64,000 bases of DNA, from contig JAKSQM010000001.1 of assembly GCA_024404115.1 (NCBI GenBank), positions 124,001-188,000 of the forward strand, in the 5' to 3' direction. Source of the DNA: Clostridia bacterium. Lineage in GTDB: Bacteria; Bacillota; Clostridia; Oscillospirales; Acutalibacteraceae. The position numbers and the translations under genes are program-made. This document shows positions 9,933 through 46,305 of this stretch, in pieces. Numbering within the stretch: position 1 is the first letter of the stretch; the number at the start of each line of letters is the position of its first letter. Below the pieces are notes generated by a model. It did not search any database. It saw nothing but the letters and a program-made list of their open reading frames with translations, and was not told the origin of the DNA.

Positions 9933-9961
9933 TTGACAACAGAACAAATGTTCGGTATAAT
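9933..9961 (+). promoter_or_regulatory. Promoter of the Y-family polymerase operon
   Basis: Perfect TTGACA (9933-9938) and TATAAT (9956-9961) hexamers with a 17-base spacer. The spacer contains a LexA palindrome. The same arrangement recurs at 43891-43919. Confidence 0.85.
9942..9953. promoter_or_regulatory. LexA (SOS) operator
   Basis: GAACAAATGTTC with flanking A and G fits the Gram-positive SOS box CGAAC-N4-GTTCG. It lies between the -35 and -10 hexamers, where LexA binding would block polymerase. The exact reverse complement is present at 43902. Confidence 0.85.
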
Positions 9962-9989
9962 AATGTTAATCTTTCAAGGCGGTGATAAA

Positions 9990-11495
9990 ATGACCGAAAA
10001 ATCTTATATCGCCATAGATTTAAAATCCTTTTATGCCTCTGTTGAATGTGTTGAAAGGGGACTTGACCCCCTTGGTGTCAACCTTGTTGTGGCAGATGAA
10101 AGCCGAACAGATAAAACCATCTGCCTTGCAGTTTCGCCGTCTTTAAAAAAATACGGCATCCCGGGCAGGGCGAGGCTTTTTGAGGTGAAGCAAAAGGTGC
10201 GTGAAGTCAACGGCTTCCGCAGGATGAATGCCCCGAAAAAGAAGCTGGAGGGCGAATCCTACTACGCAGAGGAGCTTGAAAAAAATTCTGCACTGAGCCT
10301 GTCTTTTATAGCGGCTACCCCTCGAATGAAGCTTTATATGGATTACAGCACACGAATTTATGATATTTACCTTAAATATATCGCACCCGAAGATATTCAC
10401 GTTTACTCAATTGACGAGGTGTTTATTGACGCAACGCCTTATCTCAATATTTATAAATGCACCGCAAAAGAGCTGGCAATGAAAATGATTCGCCAGGTGC
10501 TAAAAGAAACGGGTATAACCGCCACCGCAGGCATTGGCACAAATCTTTACCTTTGCAAAATCGCAATGGATATTGTTGCAAAGCACTGCGAGCCTGACGA
10601 AAACGGTGTCCGCATTGCAGAGCTTGACGAAATGAGCTACCGCCGACTTTTGTGGGATCATCGACCGCTTACGGATTTCTGGCGCATAGGCAGGGGATAC
10701 CAGAAAAAGCTGGAGGAATACGGACTTTATACAATGGGCGATATTGCCCGTTGCTCCTGCGGAAAGCCAAATGAATTTTATAACGAAGAGCTGCTTTATA
10801 AGCTCTTTGGCGTCAATGCAGAGCTTCTTATTGACCACACATGGGGATGGGAGCCCTGCACCATGGAAGAAATTAAAAGCTACCGCCCTCAAAGCAACTC
10901 TATCAGCTCAGGGCAGGTGCTTTCGTGCCCTTATGAATTTGAAAAAGCGAGGCTGATTGTCCGTGAAATGACGGAGCTTCTTGCCCTTGACCTTGTTGAA
11001 AAGCGACTTACAACAAATCAGCTGGTGCTGACAATCGGCTACGATGTGGAGAGCCTTAAAAATCCAAATATAAAAGATAAATATAAGGGCGAAATCACAA
11101 CCGATTTTTATGGCAGAAAGGTGCCGAAGCACGCACATGGTACAGCAAAGCTTAAAAGCACCACATCATCGTCAAAAATAATCGTCAATGCGGTGATGGA
11201 TTTATTTGACCGAGTGGTGGATAGCAACCTGCTTGTGAAGCGTGTTTGCGTGGCGGCAGGCAAGGTTGAAAATTTTAAAAATGAAACAGGCGAATATGAA
11301 CAGCTTGATTTTTTTACAGATTATAAAAAGAAAGAAGCAGAGGAAAAAGCGCTGAAAAAGGAGCGTGAGCTTCAGCTTGCCATTTTGCGAATGGAAAGAA
11401 AATACGGCAAAAACGCAGTTATAAAAGGAATGAATCTGTTGGAGGGAGCAACGACAATTGAGCGCAATGCGCAGGTGGGTGGACACAAAGCATAA
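9990..11495 (+). CDS. Y-family DNA polymerase (UmuC/ImpB/MucB/SamB type)
   Basis: 501 residues from the ATG at 9990, preceded by AAGGCGGTGAT. An in-frame ATG at 9933 overlaps the promoter and is rejected. Catalytic motifs are AIDLKSFYASVE near the start (first metal Asp and steric residues) and YSIDEVFID (about 136-144, the SIDE motif). GIGTNLYLCKIAMD (about 180) and the little-finger region follow, with a basic coiled C-terminal tail. This is the translesion polymerase class related to Bacillus UvrX/YqjW. It is the first gene of a LexA-controlled operon with a YolD-like partner downstream, so error-prone repair during DNA damage is strongly supported. Confidence 0.92.
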   Translation: MTEKSYIAIDLKSFYASVECVERGLDPLGVNLVVADESRTDKTICLAVSPSLKKYGIPGRARLFEVKQKVREVNGFRRMNAPKKKLEGESYYAEELEKNSALSLSFIAATPRMKLYMDYSTRIYDIYLKYIAPEDIHVYSIDEVFIDATPYLNIYKCTAKELAMKMIRQVLKETGITATAGIGTNLYLCKIAMDIVAKHCEPDENGVRIAELDEMSYRRLLWDHRPLTDFWRIGRGYQKKLEEYGLYTMGDIARCSCGKPNEFYNEELLYKLFGVNAELLIDHTWGWEPCTMEEIKSYRPQSNSISSGQVLSCPYEFEKARLIVREMTELLALDLVEKRLTTNQLVLTIGYDVESLKNPNIKDKYKGEITTDFYGRKVPKHAHGTAKLKSTTSSSKIIVNAVMDLFDRVVDSNLLVKRVCVAAGKVENFKNETGEYEQLDFFTDYKKKEAEEKALKKERELQLAILRMERKYGKNAVIKGMNLLEGATTIERNAQVGGHKA

Positions 11496-43704: not shown

Positions 43705-43856
43705 GAATTTAGCGCAGAACGAAAAGAAAAATTATAAGGGTATGAATTTATTAAAGTTCATATCCTTTTTCTTTTCTAAGAATTTTTTCGTCCTCGCAGT
43801 ATCTATATACAGCGTCAGACGAGAAAAATCCTTTCTGCATCTAAATTCGACAGTCC
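43705..43856. repeat. Short inverted-repeat element, copy C (152 bp)
   Basis: GAATTTAGCGCAGAACGAAAAG (left end at 43705) and CTAAATTCGACAGTCC (43841-43856) are the inverted ends shared with copy B. Inside are a hairpin (AAGGGTATGAA with TTCATATCCTT) and a T-rich/A-rich stem (TTTTTCGTC with GACGAGAAAAA). It is longer than copy B by an insert that carries a short open frame on the minus strand. Confidence 0.7.
43751..43840 (-). CDS. 29-aa open frame inside repeat copy C
   Basis: ATG at 43840 to TAA at 43751 gives MQKGFFSSDAVYRY, then CEDEKILRKEKGYEL. A weak AAGGA lies about 15 bases upstream, rather far. It may be a genuine micropeptide, or coding-like sequence that happens to lie in a structured repeat. 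Conservation of the frame in other copies would decide. Confidence 0.25.
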   Translation of the reverse strand: MQKGFFSSDAVYRYCEDEKILRKEKGYEL

Positions 43857-43890: not shown

Positions 43891-43919
43891 TTGACATTGT
43901 TGAACATTTGTTCTATAAT
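43891..43919 (+). promoter_or_regulatory. Promoter of the tail-fibre-like cassette
   Basis: Perfect TTGACA (43891-43896) and TATAAT (43914-43919), 17-base spacer with a LexA palindrome ending directly against the -10. Same layout as at 9933. Confidence 0.85.
43902..43913. promoter_or_regulatory. LexA (SOS) operator of the tail-fibre-like cassette
   Basis: GAACATTTGTTC is the exact reverse complement of the operator before the Y-family polymerase gene (9942-9953). The outer flanking bases are T on both sides rather than C/G, so affinity might be somewhat different. Confidence 0.8.
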
Positions 43920-43972
43920 TATAATAGGTAAGTATGTAAAAGGCTCCTTTGGTACATCAAGGAGATGGACAT

Positions 43973-44863
43973 TTGAGTAAAATCAAAGCTGTTACAAACG
44001 ATAACAAACTGATAATTACTGCACGCCCGTCAATCACCTCCGGCAGCAAAAATGTTGATGAGCTTCTGGTGGTGTTTGATAAATCGTGGGAATTTGACTC
44101 AGCGATGTATTTTGTCAATTTTTATCTTGATGATGATTCTGACGGAATTGTGAGAAGACTTGATGTTATTGGAAACACGGGCAGCTGCAAATTGCCCGAT
44201 TACATCACAAAAGATGCTGGATTTTTTCACTTTGGCGTGTTCACAAAGGCGGATGACGATATTGTCAAAACATCTGATGTGGTGGCATACGAGGTCAAAA
44301 AAGGCATATGTGTTGAGCCAGACGGAGATGCAAACGAGCACACAAATATCTCTGAATTAAAAAGGTGGTTTATTGACCTGCTCAATGCCAATGTTCACCC
44401 TGTTTCGTTTTATTATAAAATGAGGCTTGGGGATATTGACGCAACATTCACCACATATATGTCAGAGCTTTACGGTGAAATTTCAAATCTTAACGGCTTC
44501 AGCGACGGTCTTTATGCTCTTATTAAAGAATATGTCAACCCCAATTTGCAAAAGGATTCTGATACGGCAATGGTTTTCCTTTCGTGCATTGTTGCGCTTG
44601 AGGATTATTTCAAATTGATTTATTCAAGAATTGATTATGACAGCGATAATTCAGACCTTGTTGATTTGCTGAATTTCAAAAGTGAAATCAGAGAAATTGT
44701 CAAAAATTATCAGGGCGAAAGCTTTAACGAAAACAGCAGTGATACGGACTGCCTTAATGAGGTTAGAGAAATCGTAACCCGTTCACAGGCTCTTGAAAAA
44801 GAAAACAAAGCCTTTATTGACGGGCTAATAAATATTTATTTACAGGAGGATGCTAATGCCTAA
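43973..44863 (+). CDS. Phage baseplate/BppU-like protein, SOS-controlled
   Basis: 296 residues from a TTG at 43973, eight bases after AAGGAG; the upstream in-frame ATG lies within the leader and lacks a site. The N-terminal ~110 residues (ITARPSITSGSKNVDELLVVFDKSWEFDS, key part SGSKNVDEL; then CKLPDYITKDAGFFHFGVFTK and VVAYEVKKG) match the immunoglobulin-like N domain of phage baseplate upper proteins and clostridial prophage tail proteins. The remaining ~185 residues are helical and acidic. It is the first gene of a three-gene cassette with a LexA operator. No other phage structural or lysis gene is near. Confidence 0.65.
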   Translation: MSKIKAVTNDNKLIITARPSITSGSKNVDELLVVFDKSWEFDSAMYFVNFYLDDDSDGIVRRLDVIGNTGSCKLPDYITKDAGFFHFGVFTKADDDIVKTSDVVAYEVKKGICVEPDGDANEHTNISELKRWFIDLLNANVHPVSFYYKMRLGDIDATFTTYMSELYGEISNLNGFSDGLYALIKEYVNPNLQKDSDTAMVFLSCIVALEDYFKLIYSRIDYDSDNSDLVDLLNFKSEIREIVKNYQGESFNENSSDTDCLNEVREIVTRSQALEKENKAFIDGLINIYLQEDANA

Positions 44864-46064
44864 CGAAATATACGAAAATATTATTGAAAATCAGAATAAC
44901 TTTATCACTGCCCGCACAGCAGAGATAAACGAGCTTAAAGATAACACCGCAACAGCATTGGCATCACTTTCTGCCCTTGCAAACCGTGTTTACGGCTACA
45001 CCCACACGGCGGTGGTTACAGACAGCCTTGACGCTGTTTATTCAGCAATTATTGCAGAAAACAACGAGCTTGCGGAGCTTTCTGCTGTTGGCTTCACTGC
45101 AATGCTCCACGCAGGTGATACAATCACTATGCAGGGTAACAGGGTGTTTATCAACGGCACTGAGGCGCAGACAGACTATGCCTTTTCGGGCGAAAACTCA
45201 GCGGGTGGCACAGAATTTGTCAATGTGTGGTATTTTGAAAAGAACAACAGCCTTGTGCTTTCAGATGAAATATCTTTCAATATTTCTGAAATAAAGATTT
45301 TTGAAAAAAGCGCACATATCGTGTTAAATAACAGTTACACCGATTTTGTTCATAAGGCTGAAGCATCAGGGTTCACCCCTGCAAATCCAATTTGCTGCCG
45401 TGAGCTTACAGAGAACGGCATTGCTGAACGCTCATTGGTGAATGCAACAGGTAACCTTGTTGCATATCACTCAGATATGACTACAATGAGCCGTAATTTT
45501 TCAGGTCTTGCAAAAAATACAAATCTTAAATTGGTAGATTTGCCGGAATTGCTTACTATTGGAGAAATGACAGATAATAGTGATGTTGTTAGCACATTTG
45601 CGGGGTGCAGCAACCCTAATCTGATTTTCAATTTCCCGAAATTAAAAAATATATCTGGTGGATTTATATTTGGTAGCGATAATGCTATAAACGAACGTGC
45701 TATATTCAGAAATGTAAGAAGGGTGGAACTTCCAGAAAGCGTTGTGGCAATTAAGAACGTCCTCTGCTATAATAATGAGATTATTGTCTTAAATTGCAGG
45801 AATGCAGAATCAATCAGCGACAACTGGTGCACCAAAGCTCCCACCGGTGCACTTGTAATGTGTGCAGACTGGGGCGCATCAATCAACCTCGCTACCGCTG
45901 CCGCCAACTGGAGCAAGGCAGATTTCATTGATTTATTTCAGAATAAGCTCCGTGATATGGGCGAAGATGTGCGTGAAATAAAAATCCCGTCAGCTATTTT
46001 TGACAGCTTGACGGATGAAGAATTTGAACTGGTTGAAAACAAAGGCTGGACTATCGGCTGTTAA
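44856..46064 (+). CDS. Tail-fibre-like protein with coiled coil and leucine-rich (BspA-like) domain
   Basis: 402 residues from the ATG at 44856 (AGGAGG at six bases), overlapping the upstream gene by eight bases. N-terminal helix (FITARTAEINELKDNTATALASLSAL) as in trimeric fibre stalks, then a beta-rich middle (GDTITMQGNRVFINGTE, SEIKIFEKSAHIV). The second half has irregular leucine-rich units (LKLVDLPELLTIGEM, NLIFNFPKLKNISGG, RRVELPESVVAIKN). The end (FIDLFQNKLRDMG, SLTDEEFELVENKGWTI) resembles the C termini of phage tail proteins with BspA-like repeats. A receptor-binding role is inferred. Confidence 0.6.
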   Translation: MPNEIYENIIENQNNFITARTAEINELKDNTATALASLSALANRVYGYTHTAVVTDSLDAVYSAIIAENNELAELSAVGFTAMLHAGDTITMQGNRVFINGTEAQTDYAFSGENSAGGTEFVNVWYFEKNNSLVLSDEISFNISEIKIFEKSAHIVLNNSYTDFVHKAEASGFTPANPICCRELTENGIAERSLVNATGNLVAYHSDMTTMSRNFSGLAKNTNLKLVDLPELLTIGEMTDNSDVVSTFAGCSNPNLIFNFPKLKNISGGFIFGSDNAINERAIFRNVRRVELPESVVAIKNVLCYNNEIIVLNCRNAESISDNWCTKAPTGALVMCADWGASINLATAAANWSKADFIDLFQNKLRDMGEDVREIKIPSAIFDSLTDEEFELVENKGWTIGC

Positions 46065-46076
46065 GGAGGGCAAATT

Positions 46077-46250
46077 ATGAATTATACAGTAAACGGCAAA
46101 AACTACACCGCAGATGACGGATATGTTTTTTGCCATAAAATAAGCGGAGCTTGTTTTAAAAAGCTCCGACTTGCAAAAAATGACAGAATTGAAAACTATG
46201 ATGTTATCCCCGAACCTGTACCGCAGGAGGAAGAAGCAACAGAAGAATAA
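46077..46250 (+). CDS. Small acidic-tailed protein ending the tail-fibre-like cassette
   Basis: 57 residues; AAGGAGGGC precedes the ATG, 12 bases after the fibre gene. It begins MNYTVNGKNYTADDGYVFCH, has two Cys and a basic middle (FKKLRLAKND), and ends in a Pro/Glu tail (PEPVPQEEEATEE). Phage tail operons often have a small gene just after the fibre gene (XkdX-like or fibre-associated); the position fits, but there is no sequence match I recognise. An internal hairpin (CGGAGCTT with AAGCTCCG) overlaps the middle of the gene. Confidence 0.6.
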   Translation: MNYTVNGKNYTADDGYVFCHKISGACFKKLRLAKNDRIENYDVIPEPVPQEEEATEE

Positions 46251-46265
46251 GCATAAATAAAAATA

Positions 46266-46296
46266 GCGGAGCTGTGTTGTGGCACAAGCTCCGCTG
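46266..46296. terminator. Bidirectional terminator after the tail-fibre-like cassette
   Basis: AGCGGAGCT (46266-46274) pairs with AGCTCCGCT (46288-46296). The minus strand is followed by ATTTTTATTT and serves the convergent acyltransferase gene. Confidence 0.7.
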
Positions 46297-46305
46297 TATG
46301 TTTAA

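Follow-up and report, generated by a model that had tools for sequence, protein, structure and literature searches.

What are three tail-type phage genes doing behind an SOS-type promoter in a bacterial chromosome, when no other phage gene is recognised around them? The question is raised by a cassette of three genes, here called A, B and C, in a Clostridia bacterium of the family Acutalibacteraceae (assembly GCA_024404115.1; 2.43 Mb in 44 contigs, 83.8% complete). It lies in a stretch of 64,000 nucleotides, referred to below as the window, that corresponds to positions 124001-188000 of contig C1 (JAKSQM010000001.1). A sequence-only reading of the window had proposed that the cassette could supply alternative receptor-binding tips to a prophage or tailocin elsewhere in the genome after DNA damage; its observation is confirmed here and its interpretation is partly supported. 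Tips for a particle encoded elsewhere are still the best-supported explanation, but the likely partner is a head/packaging cluster that resembles a gene transfer agent (GTA), together with a fibre/lysis operon that carries a LexA-type box, and not an ordinary prophage or tailocin. We propose, with moderate confidence, that A-B-C is a LexA-switched accessory fibre locus for this GTA-like particle, kept as a host locus; its partnership with the particle is what we infer from the gene sets described below.

The sequence-only reading had described a three-gene unit behind a perfect promoter with a LexA palindrome, and this description holds: the promoter matches the sigma-70-type consensus at 12/12 positions and the core GAACATTTGTTC lies inside its spacer. 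The three frames are intact, as had been noted, share one orientation and are tightly packed, each with a ribosome-site-like sequence; comparison with the copies in a related species (G017) makes TTG at 43973 the most likely start of A, and this and the start of B at 44856 correct the earlier description. By itself the GAAC-N4-GTTC motif is weak evidence, because its two occurrences in the window (0.66 expected) are also reached by 12/100 shuffles. There are five TTGACA-N15..19-TATAAT promoters in the window, and the core is present in two of them, that of the cassette and that of a Y-family polymerase gene (9990-11495; IMS, 2.4e-26), where a locus with a TTGACA-17-TATAAT promoter spans 9933-11495 and carries the same 12-mer on the other strand. 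Y-family polymerases are a gene type that is classically under SOS control. Across the assembly the exact 12-mer has four copies and a reversed control has none; three of the four sit in promoter spacers (those of the polymerase, the cassette and the fibre/lysis operon on contig C34), whilst on contig C6 the fourth separates a -10-like box from a small frame. A LexA_DNA_bind match was obtained in 18/18 genomes of the genus, as well as in 10/14 control genomes, and 17 LexA frames were read. As its promoter overlaps a core and the genome encodes LexA, the cassette is predicted to belong to the LexA/SOS regulon.

Pfam and PHROGs returned no usable match for any of the three proteins; A and B had no tblastn match in 50,697 phage records, and scans of viral contigs confirmed no locus with B as a single query and none with an alignment of A. 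Homologs of A were found in G017 (3.8e-40 and 7.1e-15), the second directly behind tail genes, in a siphophage tail contig with the order Dit (phrog_33, 5.5e-32), Tal (PF06605, 1.5e-23), A homolog, B homolog; the frame ahead of Dit is presumably a tape measure protein (by eye; gene names so marked, here and below, did not come from a search). A second G017 contig holds a fused A+B frame that stands behind its own promoter and runs off the contig end, adjoining a gene that we take by eye to be RluD-like. The N-terminal 160-180 residues of B are 44-47% identical to the two G017 copies, and a full-length homolog (33% identity, 7e-64, in a single comparison) is present in the 104-kb viral contig L039 (IMGVR_UViG_3300021400_001310). 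There it is followed, in the same order, by a C-like gene, for which a single and weak comparison gave 16/50 identical residues (E 0.01), and both come after tail genes that are Dit- and Tal-like by eye; no GAAC-N4-GTTC occurs within the 20.4 kb of L039 examined. Because the A and B homologs follow Dit and Tal in G017, and the B and C homologs follow tail genes in L039, A-B-C is by homology a phage tail-tip module, and the baseplate/tail-fibre origin suggested earlier is borne out. The finer labels fared less well. The name BppU-like for A finds no Pfam match up to E 1, and its structural support is weak: in two fold searches the first domain resembled phage baseplate proteins, at low TM-scores (~0.2-0.3 for the query) and with unrelated immunoglobulin-like (Ig-like) folds scoring equally, so that the likeness to BppU-type upper baseplate proteins is one of fold only, drawn from a poor model (pLDDT 44.6). 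The model of B (pLDDT 40.1) is too poor for its fold to be judged. BspA-type leucine repeats in B had to be given up, as no leucine-rich repeat (LRR) family matched up to E 1, nor up to 0.1 for its viral homolog. A B profile against PDB sequences returned one chance-level row (E 0.29).

The proposed connection to a particle runs through the first domain of A, whose homolog opens the fibre encoded in the operon on C34. The two domains align with an hhalign probability of 97 (E 1e-10, 104 columns), and tblastn of the same genome's operon fibre against the 64-kb window finds A (24% over 112 residues, 2e-5); a profile of the operon fibre domain had no match among PDB sequences. When 98 genomes were searched with A, 16 matched, namely this genome, G017 and 14 others of the genus; both matches in G017 are A homologs, and in the 14 others it is the third gene of the operon that matches. 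Across the genus the operon runs regulator, 79-aa protein, fibre, M23 peptidase, small protein and SPP1-type holin. Its fibre consists of the shared domain and an M14 carboxypeptidase (profile match, in one species), and its small protein is phrog_1863, to which no function is assigned there and which is hydrophobic by eye. In this genome the fibre has 129 residues and is the shared domain alone (120 residues in G003), compared with at least 415 open codons in the other 15/17 genomes. The regulator occurs once in each of 17/18 genus genomes, with a LexA core in its promoter that is perfect in 14/17 and has a single mismatch in 2/17 (G005 and G009). In G002 it matches HTH_3 (9.5e-11) and, weakly, Sigma70_r4, and in this genome it gives weak matches only, below the cut-off. 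Regulator matches in 62/150 genomes of the family mix likely relatives with generic helix-turn-helix (HTH) proteins, and for that reason only the 13 best loci outside the genus were read: a LexA core lies within ~210 bases upstream in seven and in six there is none (raw counts). An alignment of the regulator against the viral collection gave no confirmed relative at the sensitivity used. Two regulator relatives from other genera (L075 and L080) have a LexA core and, in the stretches read, no fibre or lysis genes, the frame that follows them being, as we take it by eye, deoB-like.

On the same contig, a head/packaging cluster ends ~10.6 kb ahead of this operon. It was read in seven genus genomes, where it is adjoined by host-type genes and its order is complete in six. 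TerL was found in 18/18 genomes; the family used, phrog_2, also matches 11/14 control genomes, and the count therefore rests on frames of 424-450 residues with E <1e-47, which are present in 17/18, the remaining one being cut by a contig end. Beside the cluster neither integrase nor replication genes were seen, as judged by eye in tables of open reading frames covering 12.5-19 kb per genome, with no profile search. The stretches of all seven genomes lack GAAC-N4-GTTC. Upstream of TerS, a hairpin with a T-run stands at ~170 bases in 8/10 genomes with a placeable TerS start (stretches L040-L046, L049, L099 and L023; no shuffle control), that of this genome differing from the others, and a TA(A/T)GG(G/T)TGA-type motif is found in 9/10 when one mismatch is allowed. 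It is possible that these elements are the target of the regulator or an anti-termination site, and the hairpin would fit the latter. A TTTGT...ACAAA-type dyad was also seen by eye further upstream.

Two lines of evidence suggest that the cluster is of the GTA kind. First, distances of TerL and of the regulator follow those of host LexA (r 0.895 and r 0.914, respectively; 0/9999 permutations) over 16/18 genomes, G017 (no regulator) and G007 (TerL cut by a contig end) having been left out, and dN/dS (nonsynonymous to synonymous rates) over the eight closest pairs per gene is 0.04-0.06 for TerL, 0.11-0.20 for the regulator and 0.10-0.41 for the fibre, at high dS. TerL is thus shown, as far as its sequences tell, to be inherited vertically and under purifying selection, as we would require of a GTA. 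Secondly, the capsid and packaging genes are chromosomal and split from the fibre/lysis genes over separate loci, and by eye they lack the integrase and replication genes of a mobile phage.

If A-B-C is an accessory fibre locus of this particle, the following sequence of events can be pictured. DNA damage would inactivate LexA, which is presumed to bind the cores, and the cassette would be switched on together with the C34 operon, including its regulator, fibre, M23 peptidase and SPP1-type holin. The sigma-like/HTH regulator would in turn, by analogy with known GTA activators, turn on the head/packaging cluster. GTA-like particles would be assembled from the products of these loci, released through lysis and could then transfer DNA. 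On such a particle A would dock via the domain common to the operon's own fibre, and would carry B and C as alternative receptor-binding tips.

Several observations weigh against this proposal. The shared domain is only ~25% identical and is of a common beta-sandwich type. No tail gene has been recognised for the particle of the genus, and it is in long-tailed phages that A and B have their closest relatives. G017, the other species with A and B, has no detectable regulator, and its chromosomal A+B copy lacks a LexA core in its promoter; the regulator promoter of G007 (1/17) likewise has none. G010 has a short portal frame of 331 residues, and no protease-like frame is listed there. A hidden prophage may exist, because the assembly is 83.8% complete. 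Finally, the cassette is rare, with B in only 2/18 genus genomes, and a contig scan with B confirmed two loci, both of them G017 contigs.

This rarity also favours the view that the cassette is what is left of a siphophage prophage: a tail-tip fragment, spared by recombination or deletion, that kept its strong promoter, or gained it by chance, and has no present function. The nearest relatives do lie in phage tail modules, and the two G017 contigs with a relative of B (L030, the phage tail, and L031, the orphan locus) end in identical sequence inside the B homolog, which suggests a repeated, recombining fibre end. We nevertheless regard a remnant as rather unlikely, given three intact frames and an exact operator core within a promoter matching at every consensus position. 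The base composition and codon use of the cassette are host-like (GC 0.403 vs 0.407; codon use 0.89 and 0.91 vs 0.89 for a neighbouring gene), and a second species, G017, has another arrangement of a promoter with A and B, there beside host-type genes; related genomes hence do not carry the block only inside complete prophages, an outcome that the sequence-only reading had named beforehand as fatal to it. Nor does the 64-kb window hold any other recognised phage remnant, as the earlier reading had stated. Here the window was screened at E 1e-3 with 81 predicted proteins, taken from the open reading frame sets of L022, L030, L031, L039 and L103 and counting both genes of the host flanks and spurious frames. 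Hits of phage-type queries fell on the A and B stretches and, once, on 25 residues at 11181-11255 (5.6e-4), where the small hydrophobic protein probably matched by chance; two further matches came from host-gene queries. No head or lysis protein matched beside the cassette, which does not sit in a complete prophage.

It is doubtful that A-B-C provides accessory tips, in trans after SOS induction, to an ordinary tailed prophage that other strains of the species carry or that the incomplete assembly missed. The gene order is that of a phage tip and tailed-phage genes exist in the genus, with Dit and Tal in G014 and G017 and further TerL matches in several genomes (e.g. G008). However, this assembly yielded no Dit, Tal or Baseplate_J match, and thus no other tailed phage is seen as a partner; besides the GTA-like TerL there is only one weak TerL-family match (2.8e-5, in a 688-aa frame). 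The search for a partner proposed with the sequence-only reading accordingly found no ordinary prophage and turned up the GTA-like head cluster and the lysis operon. A contractile tailocin was rejected as partner, Baseplate_J being found in 0/18 genus genomes compared with 3/14 controls. Least probable of all, and indeed very unlikely, is that the cassette encodes a domesticated adhesin, decoy or killing protein, surface-bound or released, which SOS lysis sets free without its being part of any particle. The fibre-like sequence, the SOS-type promoter and the operator core common to the holin/M23 peptidase operon might speak for it, but B and C are collinear with viral contig genes, A retains the domain common to the particle operon's fibre, inspection by eye (no predictor run) showed no secretion signal, and nothing was found in positive support of the adhesin or killing system once suggested.

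Features of the cassette (window positions) and of the two partner loci (positions on contig C34, with those in the extracted stretch in brackets)
Feature	Position	Strand	Description
Terminator-like hairpin	43736..43767	+	14 pairs, T-rich tail; parts the DUF1697 gene (2.2e-40) from the cassette
Sigma-70-type promoter, TTGACA-17-TATAAT	43891..43919	+	12/12 consensus positions
LexA-type operator core GAACATTTGTTC	43902..43913	+	Occupies the 3' portion of the promoter spacer
Gene A	43973..44863	+	296 aa; tail-tip/baseplate-type; beta-rich first domain, helical rest (low-confidence model)
First domain of A	43973..44305	+	~Residues 1-111; counterpart (by homology) of the fibre's first domain in the LexA-box operon
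Gene B	44856..46064	+	402 aa; fibre/receptor-binding-type protein
Gene C	46077..46250	+	57 aa; small, acidic tail; placed after B as in L039
Hairpin	46263..46297	.	Separates the cassette from a convergent acyltransferase gene; T-run poor on + strand
Head cluster	C34:180015-186638 (L023 2016-8639)		TerS, TerL, portal, protease-like, capsid, connector, 115-aa and 289-aa proteins
LexA-box operon	C34:197257-199745 (L022 7258-9746)		Regulator, 76-aa protein, shortened fibre, M23 peptidase, small hydrophobic protein, SPP1-type holin

The head cluster reaches well beyond the genus. The portal family was found in 87/150 genomes of the family, with one match each (77/135 genera, one contig-end fragment in G164 being counted), and in 0/14 controls; a protease motif follows the portal in 30/30 loci that were read, the genus contributing two, and a strict capsid motif lies within 1.5 kb in 11/30. 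In the phage collection the portal matches six records, five of them unannotated and human-faecal and one a Microcystis phage (29.5%). In the longest of three faecal records read, the cluster lies between what we take by eye to be housekeeping-type genes. The human-faecal 'Bacteriophage sp.' MT835508 has a homologous cluster (portal 53%) with, presumably, ribosomal, rnf and nrd-type genes on both sides (by eye), and such host-type flanks could reflect packaged host DNA or contamination. There were also 19 viral-contig matches, in contigs of 2.9-31 kb, of which five were read: in L194 and L196 the cluster adjoins genes that are, on our assumption, metabolic-type (by eye), the flanks of two are uninformative, and in L189 an apparently integrase-like frame after the cluster (by eye) argues against a pure GTA in that lineage. 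Relatives of the cluster outside the genus run into genes that we take by eye to be tail-like (L106, L107, L191, L194 and L196). No such genes were seen beside the head cluster of the genus, and because of their absence the genus particle may be a tail-reduced form. Tentatively, much of the family might carry an ancient, vertically inherited, SOS-wired gene-transfer-particle system, in which LexA controls a dedicated sigma-like activator and a lysis operon and single species gain or swap separately SOS-switched fibre loci, such as the cassette, thereby retargeting their particles. If this is true, DNA damage would trigger altruistic lysis and the sharing of DNA with chosen recipients.

GTAs are few outside the Alphaproteobacteria. 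The closest parallel by description is FpGTA of Faecalibacterium prausnitzii, which comprises two distant chromosomal operons, one for packaging and head and one for baseplate, fibre, receptor-binding, holin and endolysin proteins, forms ~40-nm capsid-like particles with ~9-kb DNA, and was put forward by its authors in January 2026 as the first GTA of the human gut microbiome (PMC12946183). The genus likewise has separated head and fibre/lysis operons. The main text of that paper has 'LexA' 0 times and 'SOS' once (PMC12946183); in the genus, by contrast, the operon opens with a sigma-like/HTH regulator behind a LexA-type core, and this genome adds a third, orphan fibre locus. In Alphaproteobacteria GafA and GafZ activate GTA genes, and RcGTA and CcGTA (activators GafA and GafYZ) have dispersed loci (PMC9638019, PMC11150451). 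The regulator of the genus, with its weak, below-cut-off Sigma70_r4 matches, and the hairpin ahead of TerS can be set beside these systems, although the likeness is without shown homology and comes from Alphaproteobacteria, where the LexA link is indirect or in silico: LexA is required for RcGTA (PMC9638019) and LexA sites were predicted at the Dinoroseobacter GTA cluster (PMC6473078). Searches of the open-licence PMC literature turned up no report of a clostridial GTA operon with a LexA operator, nor any of a fibre locus that stands apart under SOS control. A LexA-type operator on an activator/lysis operon would explain the timing of particle production, and leads to the prediction that DNA-damaging drugs raise lysis and gene transfer in these Clostridia. 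A separate fibre locus under the same type of switch would make recipient range testable as an exchangeable module, and relatives that can be cultured allow a direct test of the gene sets and operator positions.

The cassette is surrounded by DUF1697, GNAT-type acyltransferase, MFS and GH36-type genes, and the acyltransferase gene has different neighbours in G008 (two copies), G017 and G016. The unit had been said to end at a terminator; a hairpin is indeed present at its end, within a fold of -25 kcal/mol, but a terminator scan listed it on neither strand and its T-run, by eye, suits the convergent minus-strand gene better. Rfam and tRNA scans of the window returned one tRNA-Leu, distant from the cassette. 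The small frame at the fourth exact 12-mer (C6:29102; L024 ~9103) has ~80 codons, and its promoter lies between two LexA cores, one exact and the other imperfect. It encodes a single hydrophobic stretch (by eye) and, by analogy, is perhaps an SOS division inhibitor.

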